Assembly (NCBI GenBank): GCA_001769125.1
Contig: MEOG01000088.1
Span: 62,001 to 126,000, forward strand
Source: Bacteroidetes bacterium GWF2_35_48
GTDB taxonomy: Bacteria > Bacteroidota > Bacteroidia > Bacteroidales > GWF2-35-48
Reading direction: 5' to 3'
Length of the DNA stretch: 64,000 nt
The position numbers and the translations under genes are program-made. The notes beneath the pieces were generated by a model that saw only the letters and a program-made list of their open reading frames with translations, ran no database searches and had not been told where the DNA came from. Below, piece after piece: positions 35,624 to 42,503 of the stretch. Within the stretch, counting starts at the first letter, position 1; each line of letters opens with the position of its first letter.

Positions 35624-38236
35624 ATGAAGCCTAAAAAAATACAATCAGCAAAACAGGTAAAAGAAAAAACACCTTTAAAAACCCTTATAAGTGATTTCCC
35701 AATTGTTGGCATTGGTGCTTCTGCAGGGGGCCTGGAGGCATTGGAGCAGTTCTTTAAAAATATGCCCAAAGACAATGGTATGGCTTTCGTAGTAATTCAG
35801 CATCTCGATCCAAACCATGTTGATATTTTGGCGGAATTGCTTCAACGAACAACAAGCATGCCAGTGGCTCAGGTTACTGACCGGTTGCCGGTTAAACCCA
35901 ATCATGTATATGTGATCCCTCCAAATAAAAGTATGTCTATATTAAACGGCACATTGCATTTATTTGAACCGATAGAATCAAGGGGGTTAAGGCTACCTGT
36001 TGATTTTTTCTTCCGCTCGCTTGCCGATGATCAGCAGGAAAAAAGTATTGGCATTATTCTCTCTGGCATGGGCTCCGATGGCAGCCTGGGATTGAAGGCC
36101 ATAAAAGAAAAAAACGGATTGGTATTGGTACAAGACCCCGGTGAAGCAAAATTCGATAGCATGCCCAAAAGTGCAGTTGCTGCTGTAAATGTAGATATAC
36201 TGGGCGCTGCGAATGAGTTGCCGGAGAAACTTATCAATTACCTTAAATTTAGTCCGGTTGTCACCCATGATTCAGAAATTGAACCAAAAAGCATCAGCAA
36301 CCTTGATAAAATAATCATCCTCCTGCGCACTCAAACTGGGCACGATTTTTCCCAGTATAAAAAAAATACGATGTTCCGTCGTATCGAAAGACGTATGAAC
36401 GTGCACCAGATTGATAAAATCAATAACTATATCCGCTTTTTACAGGAGAATCCAAAGGAACTGGAAATTCTTTTTAAGGAGCTATTGATTGGTGTTACAA
36501 GTTTTTTCCGCGACGCAGCTGTTTGGAACAAAATAAAAGAAAGTATTCTGCCCGATATGTTTAATGAGTTACCCAACGGACATGTTTTTCGTGCCTGGAT
36601 TCCCGGTTGTTCCACTGGAGAAGAAGCGTATTCTTTAGCAATGATTTTTATTGAAGCCTATGAGAAAATTAAGCAAGAAAAGAATTTCACTATGCAGATA
36701 TTTGCTACTGACCTCGATAGTGATGCCATTGAAATAGCCCGCAAAGGAGTTTTTTCTTCAAACATTGCCGTAGATGTTTCACCCGAAAGGTTGAGTCAGT
36801 TTTTTACGAGTAACGAAAATGGATTCAGAATAAATACAGCTATACGAGAAATGGTAATTTTTGCACCGCAGAATGTGATTAAAGATCCTCCATTTACCAA
36901 ACTGAGCCTTCTTTCCTGCAGGAATATGCTGATATATATGGAGTCGGAATTACAGAAAAAACTGATGGCTCTGTTTCATTACTGCCTCAATCCCGGAAGT
37001 ATTATGCTGCTTGGCAGCGCTGAAAGCGAAAATTCTCAGAATGCGATGTTCTCCATACTCGATCCAAAGTTAAAACTGTATAAACGTGTTGAAAATCCTA
37101 TTGCAGCTGAACTGATAAATTTTCCAAGTTCCTTTTCTCATAAAAAAATACAAATCATGGAAGATAAAAAAAACGTAAATGTTACAACAAATATACAAAC
37201 AATAGCAGACCAACTGTTGCTTCAGCGCTTTGCCCCTGCCAGTGTACTGATCAATGACAAAGGCGACATTCTTTACATTACAGGCCGCACAGGGAAATAC
37301 CTCGAACCTGCAGCGGGCAAAGCAAATATGAATATTTTTGCAATGGCCCGCGAGGGTCTGAGCAATGAGTTACCGGGAGCTTTACGTAAAGCAAAGCAAA
37401 ATTATGAACCTGTAATTTTAAGACACATTAAAGTTGGAACGAATGGAGGCACACAATATGTGAATATTACTTTTCAGCAAATCGAAAAACCGGATGCCAT
37501 AAAAGGAACGATCATGATCGTTTTTTCAGATGTTTCTGTTCTTGAAAAAGAGGCGAACATAAAATCAAAAAAAGGAAAACAGGGAGTCTCGGTTAATCAA
37601 CAGGAAATTGGAATGGAACTGCAGCGTGCCCACGAGGAACTGCAAAGTACACGCGAAGAAATGCAGACCTCACAGGAAGAATTAAAGTCATCCAATGAAG
37701 AACTTCAATCTACCAATGAAGAATTACAATCTACCAACGAAGAATTAACCACATCGAAAGAAGAGATGCAAAGCCTCAACGAAGAACTGCAAACAGTGAA
37801 TGTGGAACTGCAAAGCAAAATTACAGATTATGTTCAGTCAAATAACGACATGAAAAATTTGCTCAACAGCACAGATATAGCCACCCTGTTTCTCGACAAG
37901 GAATTAAATGTCCGTCGTTTTACTGACCAAATCACCAGCATCATTAAACTAAGATCCTCAGATATTGGCAGGCCTTTTACCGATCTGGTTACCGATTTAC
38001 AGTACCCGGAAATCAAAGATCATGTTGTCGAAGTATTGCGTACACTTGTATTTAAGGAAACACCTATAACAACAAGTGATGACAGGTGGTTCAACATTCG
38101 CATTATGCCTTACCGCACATTCGATGACCGGATTGACGGATTGGTAATCACGTTTATTGATATTACTGTTGCAAAAAAATTAGAAATGGAACTAAACAAA
38201 ACCATTAATTTACTTCGGGAAAATAATTTATTGTAA
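35624..38236 (+). CDS. CheB-CheR-PAS fusion protein
   Basis: 870 residues. The CheB methylesterase domain (about 25-205) has catalytic triad Ser33 (GASAGG), His60 (VIQHLDPNH) and Asp152 (GMGSDGS) and no receiver domain. The CheR methyltransferase domain (about 220-490) has the SAM motif IPGCSTGEEAYSL and SCRNMLIYM. Then a PAS-like region, a heptad coiled coil (about 660-735, repeats of EELQSTNEE) and a second PAS (about 740-850). Many homologues continue into a histidine kinase; here the gene stops after PAS, and a separate kinase follows beyond a DUF559 unit. The role is probably sensory adaptation outside classical chemotaxis, as no other che genes are seen. Confidence 0.93.
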   Translation: MKPKKIQSAKQVKEKTPLKTLISDFPIVGIGASAGGLEALEQFFKNMPKDNGMAFVVIQHLDPNHVDILAELLQRTTSMPVAQVTDRLPVKPNHVYVIPPNKSMSILNGTLHLFEPIESRGLRLPVDFFFRSLADDQQEKSIGIILSGMGSDGSLGLKAIKEKNGLVLVQDPGEAKFDSMPKSAVAAVNVDILGAANELPEKLINYLKFSPVVTHDSEIEPKSISNLDKIIILLRTQTGHDFSQYKKNTMFRRIERRMNVHQIDKINNYIRFLQENPKELEILFKELLIGVTSFFRDAAVWNKIKESILPDMFNELPNGHVFRAWIPGCSTGEEAYSLAMIFIEAYEKIKQEKNFTMQIFATDLDSDAIEIARKGVFSSNIAVDVSPERLSQFFTSNENGFRINTAIREMVIFAPQNVIKDPPFTKLSLLSCRNMLIYMESELQKKLMALFHYCLNPGSIMLLGSAESENSQNAMFSILDPKLKLYKRVENPIAAELINFPSSFSHKKIQIMEDKKNVNVTTNIQTIADQLLLQRFAPASVLINDKGDILYITGRTGKYLEPAAGKANMNIFAMAREGLSNELPGALRKAKQNYEPVILRHIKVGTNGGTQYVNITFQQIEKPDAIKGTIMIVFSDVSVLEKEANIKSKKGKQGVSVNQQEIGMELQRAHEELQSTREEMQTSQEELKSSNEELQSTNEELQSTNEELTTSKEEMQSLNEELQTVNVELQSKITDYVQSNNDMKNLLNSTDIATLFLDKELNVRRFTDQITSIIKLRSSDIGRPFTDLVTDLQYPEIKDHVVEVLRTLVFKETPITTSDDRWFNIRIMPYRTFDDRIDGLVITFIDITVAKKLEMELNKTINLLRENNLL

Positions 38237-38252
38237 AAAAGAAAAGAAGAAA

Positions 38253-38726
38253 CCCAACCCCTTAAAAAGGGGCAATAACAGAGTAGTTGATTAATTAATT
38301 TATATGACAACCAAACTTTATAATTTAGCCTACCTGAAAGAAATCCGCATCAATTTGCGAAAAAATATGACAGAAGCAGAACTGGTTTTATGGGAGGTGT
38401 TAAAAGATAAAAAGCTTTGTGGGCGCAAATTCAGGAGACAGCATAGCATTGGTCATTATATTGTTGATTTTTATTGTTCTTCAGAAAAACTGATAATTGA
38501 ATTAGACGGTCAGCATCATTATACACCTGAAGGAATTGAAAAGGATAGTGAACGTGATGCTCACCTTGCATTAATGGATAAAAAAGTTTTAAGGTTTGAA
38601 AATAAAGAGGTACTAAACAATTTGACAGGAGTATTAAAGCAAATAAAAGCACAATTTAAATAAAATACCCACAAGTTATAGCCCCTTTAAGGGAGTTCAG
38701 TTATAGCCCCTTTGTAAGGAGTTGGG
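38253..38726. mobile_element. DUF559 nuclease unit enclosed by 27-bp inverted repeats
   Basis: The left arm at 38253-38279 and the right arm at 38700-38726 are inverted repeats with 24 of 27 positions matching; the arm begins CCCAACCCCTTAAAAAGGGG. A further right-arm-like copy lies at 38675-38700, giving a tandem right end. Each arm holds its own small palindrome (CCCCTTAAAAAGGGG type). Between them is only the DUF559 gene. It sits between two signalling genes that are often fused or adjacent. I infer a small mobile unit; no target duplication is evident. Confidence 0.6.
38304..38663 (+). CDS. DUF559 (Vsr/PD-(D/E)xK-like) endonuclease-domain protein
   Basis: 119 residues, full length for a stand-alone DUF559 protein. 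Motifs: RKNMTEAELVLWEVLKDKKL, GRKFRRQHSIGHYIVDFYC (the Asp of the nuclease core) and KLIIELDGQHHY (ELDG, the E-x-D pair). Related to very-short-patch-repair endonucleases. It is a lone gene within inverted repeats, suggesting self-mobilisation or a host-DNA nicking role; activity is inferred from family only. Confidence 0.88.
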   Translation: MTTKLYNLAYLKEIRINLRKNMTEAELVLWEVLKDKKLCGRKFRRQHSIGHYIVDFYCSSEKLIIELDGQHHYTPEGIEKDSERDAHLALMDKKVLRFENKEVLNNLTGVLKQIKAQFK

Positions 38727-38747
38727 GTAGATATAATAAAATAAATC

Positions 38748-41700
38748 ATGAAAAAAAGTAACAAATCAGACCCCGCAATCCTTCGCCAAAAAGCAGAAGC
38801 CTCTCTGAAAAAGAAAACTGCAAAACCCGTTGCACCTCTTTCTGAGATCGATTCGCTAAAACTCATTCATGAGCTGGAGGTACACCAGATTGAACTCGAA
38901 ATGCAGAACGAAGAGCTTATGCTGGCGAAAGAGCGGGCCGATATGTTAACCGAAAAATATACGGAATTAAACGATTTTGCACCATCGGGTTATTTTACGC
39001 TTTCGCACGAAGGCAAAATTATTGAACTCAACCTCATAGCATCAAAAATGCTGGGAAAAGATCGCTCATATTTAATTAACAGTTTGTTTGGCCTTTTTGT
39101 TTCAAAAGATTCAAAACCGGGTTTCAATCTTTTCCTTGAAAAAATATTTAACAGCAAAGCAAGGGAATCCTGTGATGTGTGTTTATCAGCTAACGGTAAC
39201 TCATTGTATGTACATCTTACCGGCATAATTTGTGAAAATGCAGATCATTGCCTTGTGACCGGGTTAGACATCACCGAACGAAAGCTGGCTGAACAAGCGT
39301 TGCAGGAAAGTGAAGAACGTTTTCGTGCTATTTTTGAACAAGCAGGAATTGGCATGGCAATATTGAATACTTACACAGGACAAATTGTTCGCATAAATCA
39401 GAAATATTGCGATTTTATAGGCTATACCATGCAGGAAATGTTACAAAAAACATTCATGGATATTACTTTTCATGAGGATATTCAAACAAATATTGATTAT
39501 AACAAACAGCTTTTAGAAGGTAGTAATAAAGAATTTTCATTTGAAAAGCGTTATATGCATAAAAATGGAAACATTCTATGGGGGAGCCTTACTGTTTCGC
39601 CTTTATGGAAACCAGATGAGAAACCGCAAACCTACTTTCATATTGCAATTGTCGAAAATATCACAGAGCGCAAGGAAGCTAAGGATGATCTCAGCAAAGA
39701 ATTATATTTCTCGAAAAGCCTGATTGAAACAGCACAGGTAATTATCCTGACCTTGAATCCTGATGGGACCATTTTCCATTTCAATCCCTATATGGAGGAA
39801 TTATCTGGATATAAATTAGAGGAAGTAAAGGGGAAAGACTGGGTGAAAACTTTTATTCCGGAAGAGATAAAGCAAAATATAAATGAAATATTTGGCAAAG
39901 CAATAAATAATATACCTACCCGTGGCAACGTAAATCCTATTATCACTAAAAATAAACAAAAACTATTTATTGAATGGTATGATAAAACCTTACTGGATTC
40001 ACAGTGTCGTACAATTGGAGTGCTAGCCATTGGTATGGATGTTACAGAGCGAATGTTGGCACAAGATGCTTTAATAGAATCAGAACAAAAGTTAAAATCT
40101 ATAACCGGGGCGGCGCAGGATGCTATTATTATGATTGACTACAACGGCAATGTGAGTTTCTGGAACCAGTCAGCAAATAACATTTTTGGTTATTCTCAGG
40201 AAGAAATAGTTGGAAAAACACTTCATAAAGTTATTGCAAGAAATGAAGATAACATGATCCACTTAAAAGCATTCCCTGTCTTTGCCAAATCAGGTACAGG
40301 AGCCGCAGTGGGAAAAACGCTGGAACTAATAGGCCTGCATAAAAATGGAAGCGAAATCAATATCGAACTTTCGCTCTCTGCAATAAAAATCAAAGATAAC
40401 TGGCATGCAGTGGGTATTGCAAGAGATATTACAGACCGTAAAAAACAAGAAGAAAAGCTCAGCGAAAGCGAAGAACGTTATCGCATGCTGGTGCAGCAAA
40501 TGCCCGATATGTTATCAATCCATGCCAATGGAAAATTTTTATATGCCAATGATATTATTCTGAATAATGTTGGATTAACTATTGAAGAAATTAAAGGGCA
40601 ATCTGTACTAAATTTTGTTACCGAGCCGTTCAGAGATATGGTTCTGCAAAATATGAAAAAACGAATGAGCGGAGAGCAAGTGGGCGAATATGAAATAGAA
40701 GTAATAGGGAAAAACGAAACCAACAGACGCGTAATTGTAAGGTCAGAAAGTATAAAATATGAACAACAGAATGCCATTTTATCAGTAATGACCGATATTA
40801 CAGAACGAAAAAATCTGGAGATTGAACTGCAAAAAAATTACGATTCACAAGAAGTACTGGTATCGCTGCTTAAGCTTTCTATGGAAAATATTACGCTGAA
40901 AGAAATTCTTTATAAATCTTTCGAAATTATTATTTCTCTGCCCTGGCTCGCATTTGAATCAAAGGGCTGTATATTTCTTTTCAATAAAAAAACACAGGAA
41001 CTGGAAATGTTTACAGAGAAAAATTTATCTGCAAACATTCAGAATTCCTGCCGCAATGTGAAGTTAGAACAATGCTATTGTGGAAAAGCAGCAGTTACGA
41101 AACAAATTGTATTCAGCAGTTGCCTGGATGCGGATCACGAAATTCGTTATCCGGATATTCATGAACACGGACATTATTGTGTCCCGATTCTTTTTGCAGA
41201 TCAATTATTGGGGGTTATTAATATTTATTTAAGAAACGGGCATCGGGAATCAGACCGGGAAAGAGAATTTCTTACAGCCTGTGCGAATACCCTTTCCGGT
41301 ATTATTGTCAGAAAAGACAATGAAAATGAACTAAACGAAACCTTGGAAAATCTTGAAAAAAGGGTAATGGAAAGAACTTCGGAATTGACAGATGAAATAG
41401 TTATCAGAAAAGAAATAGAAAATCTGCTTAAAAAAAGCGAGGTAAAGTACAGAACTTTGATTGAACAGGCTGTGGATGCAATTTTTATCGGGGACAGCAA
41501 GGGTAATTTTATAGATGTAAATGATGCAGCTGTTATTTTAACAGGCTATACGCGAAAGGAGCTTATGCGATCGAATATGGAAGACCTGTTCAGCAATGAT
41601 ATTTTAACAGCCACTCCTCTGAGGTACGATCTGCTTGATAAAGGGGAAATAGTAATAACCGAACGGATACTAACGCAAAAAAACGGTATGCCGATTCCCA

Positions 41701-42503
41701 TTGAAATGAAGACGCGTAAAATGCCGGACGGAACTTACCAGGCATTTTTGAGAGATACTACCGAGCGGAAAAAAATGGAAAAAAATATCCGCGAAGCCCT
41801 TGATAAAGAAAGAGAACTTAATTTATTGAAATCACGTTTTATTTCTGTCATATCTCATGAATTCCGTACCCCGCTGTCCGGTATTTTCGGGAGCGTGCAA
41901 CTACTCGAAAAACACGGCAGTAAATGGGACGATGCAAAAAAACAGGAATACTACAAACGCATTTATTCATCCATCCAATATACCAATGTGCTGCTCGATG
42001 ATGTATCCATAATCGGGAAAGACGAGAGCGGGCGTTTATCAGCTAATATTCAGGCCGTGAATGTGAAAAAGTTATACACCCAGGTTATATGCGATTTAAA
42101 ATCTGTGTACGGTAAGCTTGTCGTTATAAAAACAAAAAATAATTATAAGTCTGCAGAAATAAATACTGATGAAAGCCTGCTGCGGCATATTTTGAATAAT
42201 ATTATTTCAAATGGTATTAAATACTCAGAAAACAAGCCTGTTGATCTCCTTATCGAAAAATACGGTTTGCAGGGAATTCAATTTAGTATTCATGACCGAG
42301 GAATAGGTATTCCGGCAGAAGACATGAAGCATATTTTTAAACCCTTTCACAGGGCAGTTAATGCAGAAACCATAAAAGGTACAGGAATAGGGTTAACCAT
42401 TGTAAAGCGATGCGTGGATTTATTGCAGGGTACCATAGAAATTGAAAGTACGGAAGGTAAGGGAACAACGGTTAAGGTGGTTCTGCCGGTAACAGTTGCA
42501 TAA
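38748..42503 (+). CDS. PAS/GAF sensor histidine kinase
   Basis: 1251 residues, soluble. An N-terminal coil (ELEVHQIELEMQNEELMLAKE) leads into five PAS domains (about 60-700), a GAF domain (about 710-860) with Cys776, Cys778 (CYCGKAA) and HGHYC at 807-811, a sixth PAS (about 900-1010), HisKA with His1037 (ISHEFRTPLSGIFGSVQ), and HATPase with DRGIGIPAEDMKH and GTGIGLTI. No receiver domain. The second PAS (39303-39675) is nearly identical to one in the kinase at 54047. It probably works with the adjacent CheB-CheR-PAS protein or the REC proteins downstream. Confidence 0.92.
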   Translation: MKKSNKSDPAILRQKAEASLKKKTAKPVAPLSEIDSLKLIHELEVHQIELEMQNEELMLAKERADMLTEKYTELNDFAPSGYFTLSHEGKIIELNLIASKMLGKDRSYLINSLFGLFVSKDSKPGFNLFLEKIFNSKARESCDVCLSANGNSLYVHLTGIICENADHCLVTGLDITERKLAEQALQESEERFRAIFEQAGIGMAILNTYTGQIVRINQKYCDFIGYTMQEMLQKTFMDITFHEDIQTNIDYNKQLLEGSNKEFSFEKRYMHKNGNILWGSLTVSPLWKPDEKPQTYFHIAIVENITERKEAKDDLSKELYFSKSLIETAQVIILTLNPDGTIFHFNPYMEELSGYKLEEVKGKDWVKTFIPEEIKQNINEIFGKAINNIPTRGNVNPIITKNKQKLFIEWYDKTLLDSQCRTIGVLAIGMDVTERMLAQDALIESEQKLKSITGAAQDAIIMIDYNGNVSFWNQSANNIFGYSQEEIVGKTLHKVIARNEDNMIHLKAFPVFAKSGTGAAVGKTLELIGLHKNGSEINIELSLSAIKIKDNWHAVGIARDITDRKKQEEKLSESEERYRMLVQQMPDMLSIHANGKFLYANDIILNNVGLTIEEIKGQSVLNFVTEPFRDMVLQNMKKRMSGEQVGEYEIEVIGKNETNRRVIVRSESIKYEQQNAILSVMTDITERKNLEIELQKNYDSQEVLVSLLKLSMENITLKEILYKSFEIIISLPWLAFESKGCIFLFNKKTQELEMFTEKNLSANIQNSCRNVKLEQCYCGKAAVTKQIVFSSCLDADHEIRYPDIHEHGHYCVPILFADQLLGVINIYLRNGHRESDREREFLTACANTLSGIIVRKDNENELNETLENLEKRVMERTSELTDEIVIRKEIENLLKKSEVKYRTLIEQAVDAIFIGDSKGNFIDVNDAAVILTGYTRKELMRSNMEDLFSNDILTATPLRYDLLDKGEIVITERILTQKNGMPIPIEMKTRKMPDGTYQAFLRDTTERKKMEKNIREALDKERELNLLKSRFISVISHEFRTPLSGIFGSVQLLEKHGSKWDDAKKQEYYKRIYSSIQYTNVLLDDVSIIGKDESGRLSANIQAVNVKKLYTQVICDLKSVYGKLVVIKTKNNYKSAEINTDESLLRHILNNIISNGIKYSENKPVDLLIEKYGLQGIQFSIHDRGIGIPAEDMKHIFKPFHRAVNAETIKGTGIGLTIVKRCVDLLQGTIEIESTEGKGTTVKVVLPVTVA

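Follow-up and report, generated by a model that had tools for sequence, protein, structure and literature searches.

A DUF559 nuclease gene between inverted palindromes: a probable minimal mobile unit in Bacteroidetes and other bacteria

The enzymes Vsr and I-Bth0305I nick or cut one site, and Rickettsia palindromic elements (RPE), for which we know of no encoded enzyme, can insert in frame in protein genes. In the so-called REPtrons, dispersed copies of repetitive extragenic palindromes (REP) and REPINs depend on, or correlate with, the RAYT enzyme gene, and RPE-4 and RPE-6 are CGTC repeats (PMC3733652). The intrastrand triplex motif (TM) of Escherichia coli, TM_ECO or BoxC, was described by Holder et al. 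(2015) in 23 copies in MG1655 and 3610 copies in 262 genomes; TM repeats are unstable in E. coli, and no mobility gene was reported near the motifs (PMC4666352). For the DUF559 family, a 2026 paper links the Caulobacter member VsrA to DNA damage in a methylase mutant and proposes that it is a Vsr-type mismatch repair enzyme (PMC12907096), which makes slightly dated the statement of a first-pass annotation of the DNA studied here that stand-alone DUF559 genes have no known job. That DNA, a stretch of 64,000 nt from contig MEOG01000088.1 of Bacteroidetes bacterium GWF2_35_48 (hereafter the window), carries a DUF559 nuclease gene between two inverted palindromic arms.

The window unit is ~480 bp long (38250–38728; features in Table 1). 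As the first-pass annotation had stated, the arms match at exactly 24 of 27 positions (left arm, CCCAACCCCTTAAAAAGGGGCAATAAC; reverse complement of the right arm, CCCAACTCCTTACAAAGGGGCTATAAC) and enclose only a Vsr/PD-(D/E)XK-like nuclease gene, with no DDE, serine or tyrosine transposase and no Y1/HUH transposase inside the unit. Over the gene, the inverted-repeat score is 20, whereas all 631 equally spaced control placements in the window stay at or below 15. By pattern and family searches, on which all our genome-wide statements for this organism rest, the arm 27-mer (up to 3 mismatches) is found at two places only in the 5.98-Mb genome, both at the sole DUF559 gene of that genome. Each arm consists of a palindrome and a G-rich tail, and both are slightly degraded, with GGG instead of the family's GGGG in the left tail and one mismatch in the right stem. 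Relatives give good support to the view that the window holds one copy of a mobile DUF559 unit, with the gene intact and the arms slightly worn. More broadly, we consider it probable, at roughly two chances in three, that such units are a widespread minimal mobile element in which a DUF559 nuclease gene is enclosed by inverted palindromes able to fold as a hairpin or an intrastrand triplex.

Like a REPtron, this arrangement has small palindromes with a conserved tag that occur solo, as inverted dimers and on the flanks of one small enzyme gene; the DUF559 palindromes flank the enzyme gene in the window and are dispersed in relatives, not in the own genome. Unlike in a REPtron, the enzyme is a PD-(D/E)XK nuclease rather than an HUH/Y1 protein, the palindrome has a G-rich third block and lacks the GTAG/CGTC tag (the arm ends are GGGGTT and GTTATAG), and the Y1 genes of the same genomes carry other palindromes. 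An identity with the CGTC REPs was rejected, as the sequences differ. In function the unit would correspond to REP palindromes with their RAYT enzyme, but with a nuclease and palindromes that are unrelated to these. The dispersed arm consensus has the TM_ECO/BoxC order of C-block, loop, G-block, loop and G-block, and the arm family shares with that motif the high copy number in many genomes and the inverted pairs, whereas the triplex paper ties no mobility gene to its motif and the arms here are tied to DUF559. I-Bth0305I (EDxHD, Vsr-like fold, PDB 3r3p), a selfish and site-cutting enzyme, has the same catalytic fold, but DUF559 has palindromic ends of its own and is found at many unrelated sites. 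VsrA is likewise a DUF559/Vsr-like nuclease, but the role discussed for it is mismatch repair, with a methylase as partner (PMC12907096). RPEs are also small palindromic elements able to insert in frame, with different palindromes. Classical DDE transposons or insertion sequences and their miniature inverted-repeat transposable elements (MITEs) share the internally deleted copies that keep their ends, but not the transposase between terminal inverted repeats.

Evidence that the unit moves comes from its relatives. The nearest of them (L033, L034, L035, L036, L038 and L025) have no neighbouring DNA in common with the window, so that the gene does not sit at the same locus in all relatives; one shared locus is what the first-pass annotation had named as evidence against its reading. 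One metagenome-assembled genome (MAG) carries three copies of the unit, 94–98% identical, at different loci; in the two complete copies, the homology starts at the left arm's outer edge and runs to ~18 nt past the right arm, and the third is without the left arm. In genome G048, where the window arm is matched at dozens of places, an internally deleted DUF559 gene has its last 22 codons left between two arms (L167), and at another locus the DUF559 N-terminus is joined to the same 22 codons beside an arm (L232). Such copies, deleted internally with arms kept, stand in the usual relation of a MITE to an autonomous element.

Alignment of loci with and without the unit, as envisaged in the first-pass annotation, found empty sites in Deinococcus species. 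The unit, on plasmids in this genus, lies between the oxidoreductase gene and hpaE of the hpa operon in strain NW-56, and between hpaB and the oxidoreductase gene in D. proteolyticus and, in shortened form, at the same junction in D. wulumuqiensis. D. deserti, D. ficus and D. radiophilus have no unit at either junction, and at their oxidoreductase–hpaE site the two genes overlap by 4 bp. The empty sites have no palindrome at the insertion point, so both arms arrived with the gene. The units of NW-56 and D. proteolyticus are 79% identical, and their homology stops at the outer edge of the arms: the arms are conserved and the flanks are not. An additional inverted repeat, GGGCCAGCGTTGCTG / CAGCAACGCTGGCCC, lies at the outer ends of the D. 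proteolyticus unit (L214); it is partly present in D. wulumuqiensis and absent from NW-56. Among the Azospirillum plasmids searched for empty sites, every record that covers the locus still has the gene, and the same search of Sinorhizobium plasmids gave mostly repeat-only matches. By sequence comparison, the arms-gene-arms unit stands at different places in relatives, its internally deleted copies retain their arms, and arms spread through genomes singly or in pairs. Of the self-mobilising nuclease element proposed in the first-pass annotation, the mobile unit is thus well supported for the DUF559 family, by different loci, internal deletions, empty sites and homology that ends at the arms; that DUF559 itself does the moving is, we infer, likely.

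The arm, confined to two places in the own genome, is a dispersed repeat in relatives, with the consensus TCTGTTATAG-CCCCTT-nnn-AAGGGG-TT-GGGGTT, i.e., C-block, loop, G-block, spacer and a second G-block that mirrors the first. Counted with a variable loop, since a fixed-loop pattern misses loop variants, the pattern CCCCTTN{2,5}AAGGGGTTGGGG has 27, 22, 17, 10 and 8 copies in other genomes of the order, and the reversed control has none. In relatives the arm is found solo, in inverted pairs or around DUF559. Arms occurring mainly without DUF559 had been regarded as a sign against the unit; this is not so in the own genome, where both arms are at the gene, and is so in several relatives, in which solo and paired arms behave as MITEs or REPs would. 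An unpaired inner part, GTTATAG or GTTATTG, is common to the window arms and the dispersed copies, which makes them one repeat family and not just look-alike hairpins, and the 33-nt arm sequence that includes GTTATAG also lies beside the DUF559 genes that are closest to that of the window. The mirrored third block of a TM is present in the dispersed consensus and only approximately in the worn window arms, each of which has a defect; with their 6-nt stem and worn third strand, the window arms would form a divergent, shorter TM subfamily. Genome G040, which also has window-type arms, contains a palindrome, CCCCTATAGGGGGAGTGTTAG, in a tandem array with a 21-bp period (G040:C256:12-170).

In different phyla, the palindromes beside DUF559 genes share a single architecture (C-block, loop, G-block, spacer and G-block). 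Our sample comprised 106 DUF559 loci, 100 of them testable by inverted-repeat score; 49 of these 100 genes reach a score of at least 15, compared with 12 of 311 other open reading frames (ORFs) from these loci (Fisher p 3e-24). When C/G hairpins were sought directly, 63 of 110 DUF559 loci had one on each side, and 61 of 646 control segments had one. Hairpin-plus-tail modules are likewise enriched at DUF559 flanks, where the third block is mirrored in 122 cases and direct in 70. The hosts of these loci include Bacteroidetes, Clostridia, Chloroflexi, proteobacteria, cyanobacteria, Deinococcus and an archaeal MAG. Among stand-alone genes, arm similarity follows protein similarity (Mantel r 0.20, 8/2000 permutations), and the four arms nearest to those of the window are the arms of close protein relatives. 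On this comparison, the arms belong to the DUF559 gene.

Repeat counts track DUF559, not Y1/RAYT transposases. Among 197 genomes of the order, and in a comparison that ignores phylogeny, the general motif CCCCTN{1,9}AGGGGN{1,20}GGGG has a median of 10 copies where there is a strong DUF559 match (65 genomes) and of 1 in the other 132 (p 6e-15), whereas a reversed control motif does not differ with DUF559 (p 0.89). Y1 transposases were counted too, because Y1/RAYT enzymes are known movers of palindromes. DUF559 has its effect on motif counts in both strata, i.e., in genomes with and without Y1 (p 7e-9 and 9e-4), and the presence of Y1 has none, either with or without DUF559 (p 0.21 and 0.87). 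The motif is absent within ~1 kb on either side of all 16 Y1 genes inspected, which come mostly from repeat-rich genomes; many of the 16 have palindromes of their own, and three DUF559 loci hold 5–12 motifs. On the strata test and the flank check, Y1/RAYT as the mover is not favoured. The Y1 genes L242–L247 (in G048, G152 and G040) have flanking palindromes, e.g., GTCCCGTAGGGAC...GGTAG, that are distinct from the DUF559-type repeats.

In E. coli K-12, ycjD, a DUF559 gene, is followed by a degenerate TM, a canonical TM and then fabI. Across 59 E. coli records, the median number of other TM-like places is 21 (13–32) in the 37 with ycjD and 4 (2–23) in the 22 without it (p 3e-8), a contrast that is confounded by lineage and is a lead, not proof. 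According to one paper, ycjD is a marker of phylogroups A, B1 and C, with the eef operon at the locus elsewhere (PMC12817139). The ycjD locus was rejected as a clean empty site, as the eef efflux operon, which has been proposed to be ancestral, takes its place in strains that lack ycjD. In the sapF–fabI interval (L219, L218 and L220), the ycjD/TM region and the eef operon alternate between E. coli lineages. The triplex paper mentions neither endonucleases nor DUF families (PMC4666352), and the passages inspected in three papers that name DUF559 or YcjD do not mention palindromes, the string 'palindrom' being absent from the text of PMC12907096. In the literature searched, we found no paper with DUF559 in its title or abstract, and no published description of the DUF559-palindrome pairing was found in a search that lay outside subscription literature and preprints.

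The unit is also found inside protein genes. In leucyl-tRNA synthetase (LeuRS), it occurs as an in-frame insert whose arms are read as linkers, at more than one site: at the boundary of the editing domain (L005, L006, L011 and L020) and at a second site (L021 and L023). To either side of the ~140-residue insert, the sequence aligns with a solved LeuRS, and a Pfam search agrees. The insert may alter the editing domain of this essential enzyme; in L021 and L023 it is degenerate, as if tamed. In HsdR of type I restriction systems, DUF559 lies in frame at several sites (L015, L039, L041–L046, L048, L051 and L054), here too with the arms read as linkers, in hosts that range from an archaeon to Gammaproteobacteria; since these cases are related, not all are independent insertions. 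At a second site, the HsdR ORFs of L044 and L054 contain an in-frame insert that consists of repeat only (...PLPEEEESLLPSPSGGRAGDGG...) and appears to be a pair of arms that lack DUF559. Neither introns nor inteins were seen at the intergenic and in-frame sites, though splicing had no dedicated test.

The window protein matches PF04480 with 118.3 bits (curated cut-off 20.6) and keeps all residues that are invariant among 50 homologues of the family (R19, E26, W30, Q46, D55, E66, D68 and H72); D55, E66, D68 and H72 among them are the predicted PD-(D/E)XK/Vsr-like catalytic residues. Its AlphaFold model (predicted local distance difference test, pLDDT, 87) has as best PDB matches 3hrl, a solved DUF559 protein, and then the catalytic domain of I-Bth0305I (Foldseek E 2e-4, probability 1.00). 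The window protein is a PD-(D/E)XK, Vsr-like DUF559 nuclease with predicted catalytic activity.

On the minus strand, the left arm has the order C-block, loop, G-block, spacer and shortened third G-block, with an outward tail; with its flanking matches it extends over ~38250–38282, and its hairpin has a computed folding energy of -5.2 kcal/mol (z -3.2). The tandem copy that the first-pass annotation placed at the right end is present, in truncated form. Between 38000 and 39000 there is no Rfam match, and PADLOC reports nothing beyond weak DpdF and homing-endonuclease matches.

Table 1. Positions of the window unit's parts and of the genes beside it
Feature	Position	Strand	Remarks
CheB-CheR-PAS protein, upstream neighbour, outside the unit	35624..38236	+	Unit begins ~15 nt past the stop
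Left arm	38253..38279	-	(TCTGTTATTG)CCCCTT-TTT-AAGGGG-TT-GGGTTT, read on the - strand
DUF559 (PF04480) nuclease gene, 119 aa	38304..38663	+	Intact; PF04480 E 1.8e-34
Truncated extra copy of the right arm (AGTTATAGCCCCTTTAAGGGAGTT)	38674..38697	+	15-nt direct repeat; third G-block lacking
Right arm	38700..38726	+	GTTATAG-CCCCTT-TGT-AAGGAG-TT-GGGG; one stem mismatch; outward tail
Multi-PAS histidine kinase, downstream neighbour, outside the unit	38748..42503	+	–

If DUF559 does the moving, the enzyme would recognise the arm when it is extruded or single-stranded, e.g., at a replication fork, and would nick at or beside the arm, or at its target; host repair or template switching would then copy the unit, or the arms alone in trans, into a new site. 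The Vsr/I-Bth0305I-like fold makes the proposed nicking of the arm plausible. We regard as an evenly balanced question the further proposal that DUF559 is the dedicated mobilising enzyme of BoxC/TM repeats across bacteria, i.e., a new class of transposable unit with a restriction-fold nuclease as its only protein, which would act on folded single-stranded palindromes, have REPIN/MITE-like dependants and insert in frame into essential genes.

Several points weigh against reading the unit as mobile. We infer cleavage and transposition by DUF559, of which none has been seen. The window unit is a single copy with worn arms, and its own empty site was not found: in G001 and G040, the loci of the upstream neighbour's orthologues offer no clean empty site, and behind the G040 orthologue there is a half repeat without DUF559. 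No target-site duplication is found at the Deinococcus sites, where the species compared are only ~75–83% identical. About half of the DUF559 loci are without a strong inverted pair under the strict score. Arm orientation is not uniform (tails out/out in 12 cases, in/out in 11, in/in in 6 and out/in in 2), and the ends are looser than classical terminal repeats, which likens them to REP dimers more than to strict transposon termini. Neither the order-wide motif test nor the E. coli contrast is corrected for phylogeny. Finally, 12 genomes have at least 15 motifs and no strong DUF559 match, and all 12 have Y1 transposases; some of the 12 are draft MAGs, and at least one of them, G048, retains remnants of DUF559.

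The last point bears on the alternative that DUF559 is a passenger, cargo that profits from inverted flanks while another enzyme, a Y1/RAYT transposase or general recombination, moves the palindromes. The irregular arm orientation and the ten Y1 genes of the own genome fit this as well, but Y1 is without effect on motif counts once DUF559 is considered and the DUF559 effect holds in both strata, the 16 Y1 genes have no motif nearby and many have other palindromes, and the arms co-vary with the nuclease; we therefore take the passenger role to be unlikely. Quite unlikely, in our judgement, is a functional link without mobility, in which DUF559 is a Vsr-like repair or structure-resolving nuclease that is kept since triplex repeats stall replication. 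A repair gene would need neither enclosure by inverted arms nor arm-bounded, internally deleted copies, nor the in-frame inserts in LeuRS and HsdR, nor two places in one operon with reciprocal empty sites, although its Vsr/homing-like fold, the instability of TM repeats in E. coli (PMC4666352) and the DNA damage and proposed mismatch repair role of VsrA (PMC12907096) all suit such a nuclease.

We think it just as doubtful that DUF559 spreads otherwise, in a homing-like manner, and lands in pre-existing G/C-rich palindromes. The closest non-DUF559 structure is indeed the catalytic domain of a homing endonuclease, I-Bth0305I, and the G040 half repeat behind the upstream-gene orthologue could be such a target; however, the empty sites in Deinococcus are palindrome-free at the insertion point, and homologous units conserve both arms, not the flanks. 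That the window arms are due to chance or are local structures such as terminators, with no mobility, is very improbable: although the own genome has two copies only and a G/C-rich hairpin beside a gene can serve as a terminator, the control placements in the window reject chance, and the same 33-nt sequence occurs as a dispersed repeat in other genomes, as well as next to the most closely related DUF559 genes. The reading that we prefer is still that of a mobile unit made of a DUF559 nuclease gene and its palindromic arms.

DUF559 counts among the common 'proteins of unknown function', and BoxC/TM are common bacterial repeats that were reported to be unstable and to lack a mobility gene. If true, a link between the two would explain the origin of the repeats, their coming and going between strains and the role of the nuclease, and it would provide a second, unrelated enzyme class for REP/RAYT-like systems. 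E. coli K-12 has both parts (ycjD and ~23 TMs), so that the link is testable there. That the pairing of gene and palindrome turns up repeatedly and at varying genomic places, in Bacteroidetes as in Deinococcus and E. coli, suggests that DUF559 spreads, and probably moves, a very common class of repeats of hitherto unexplained origin.
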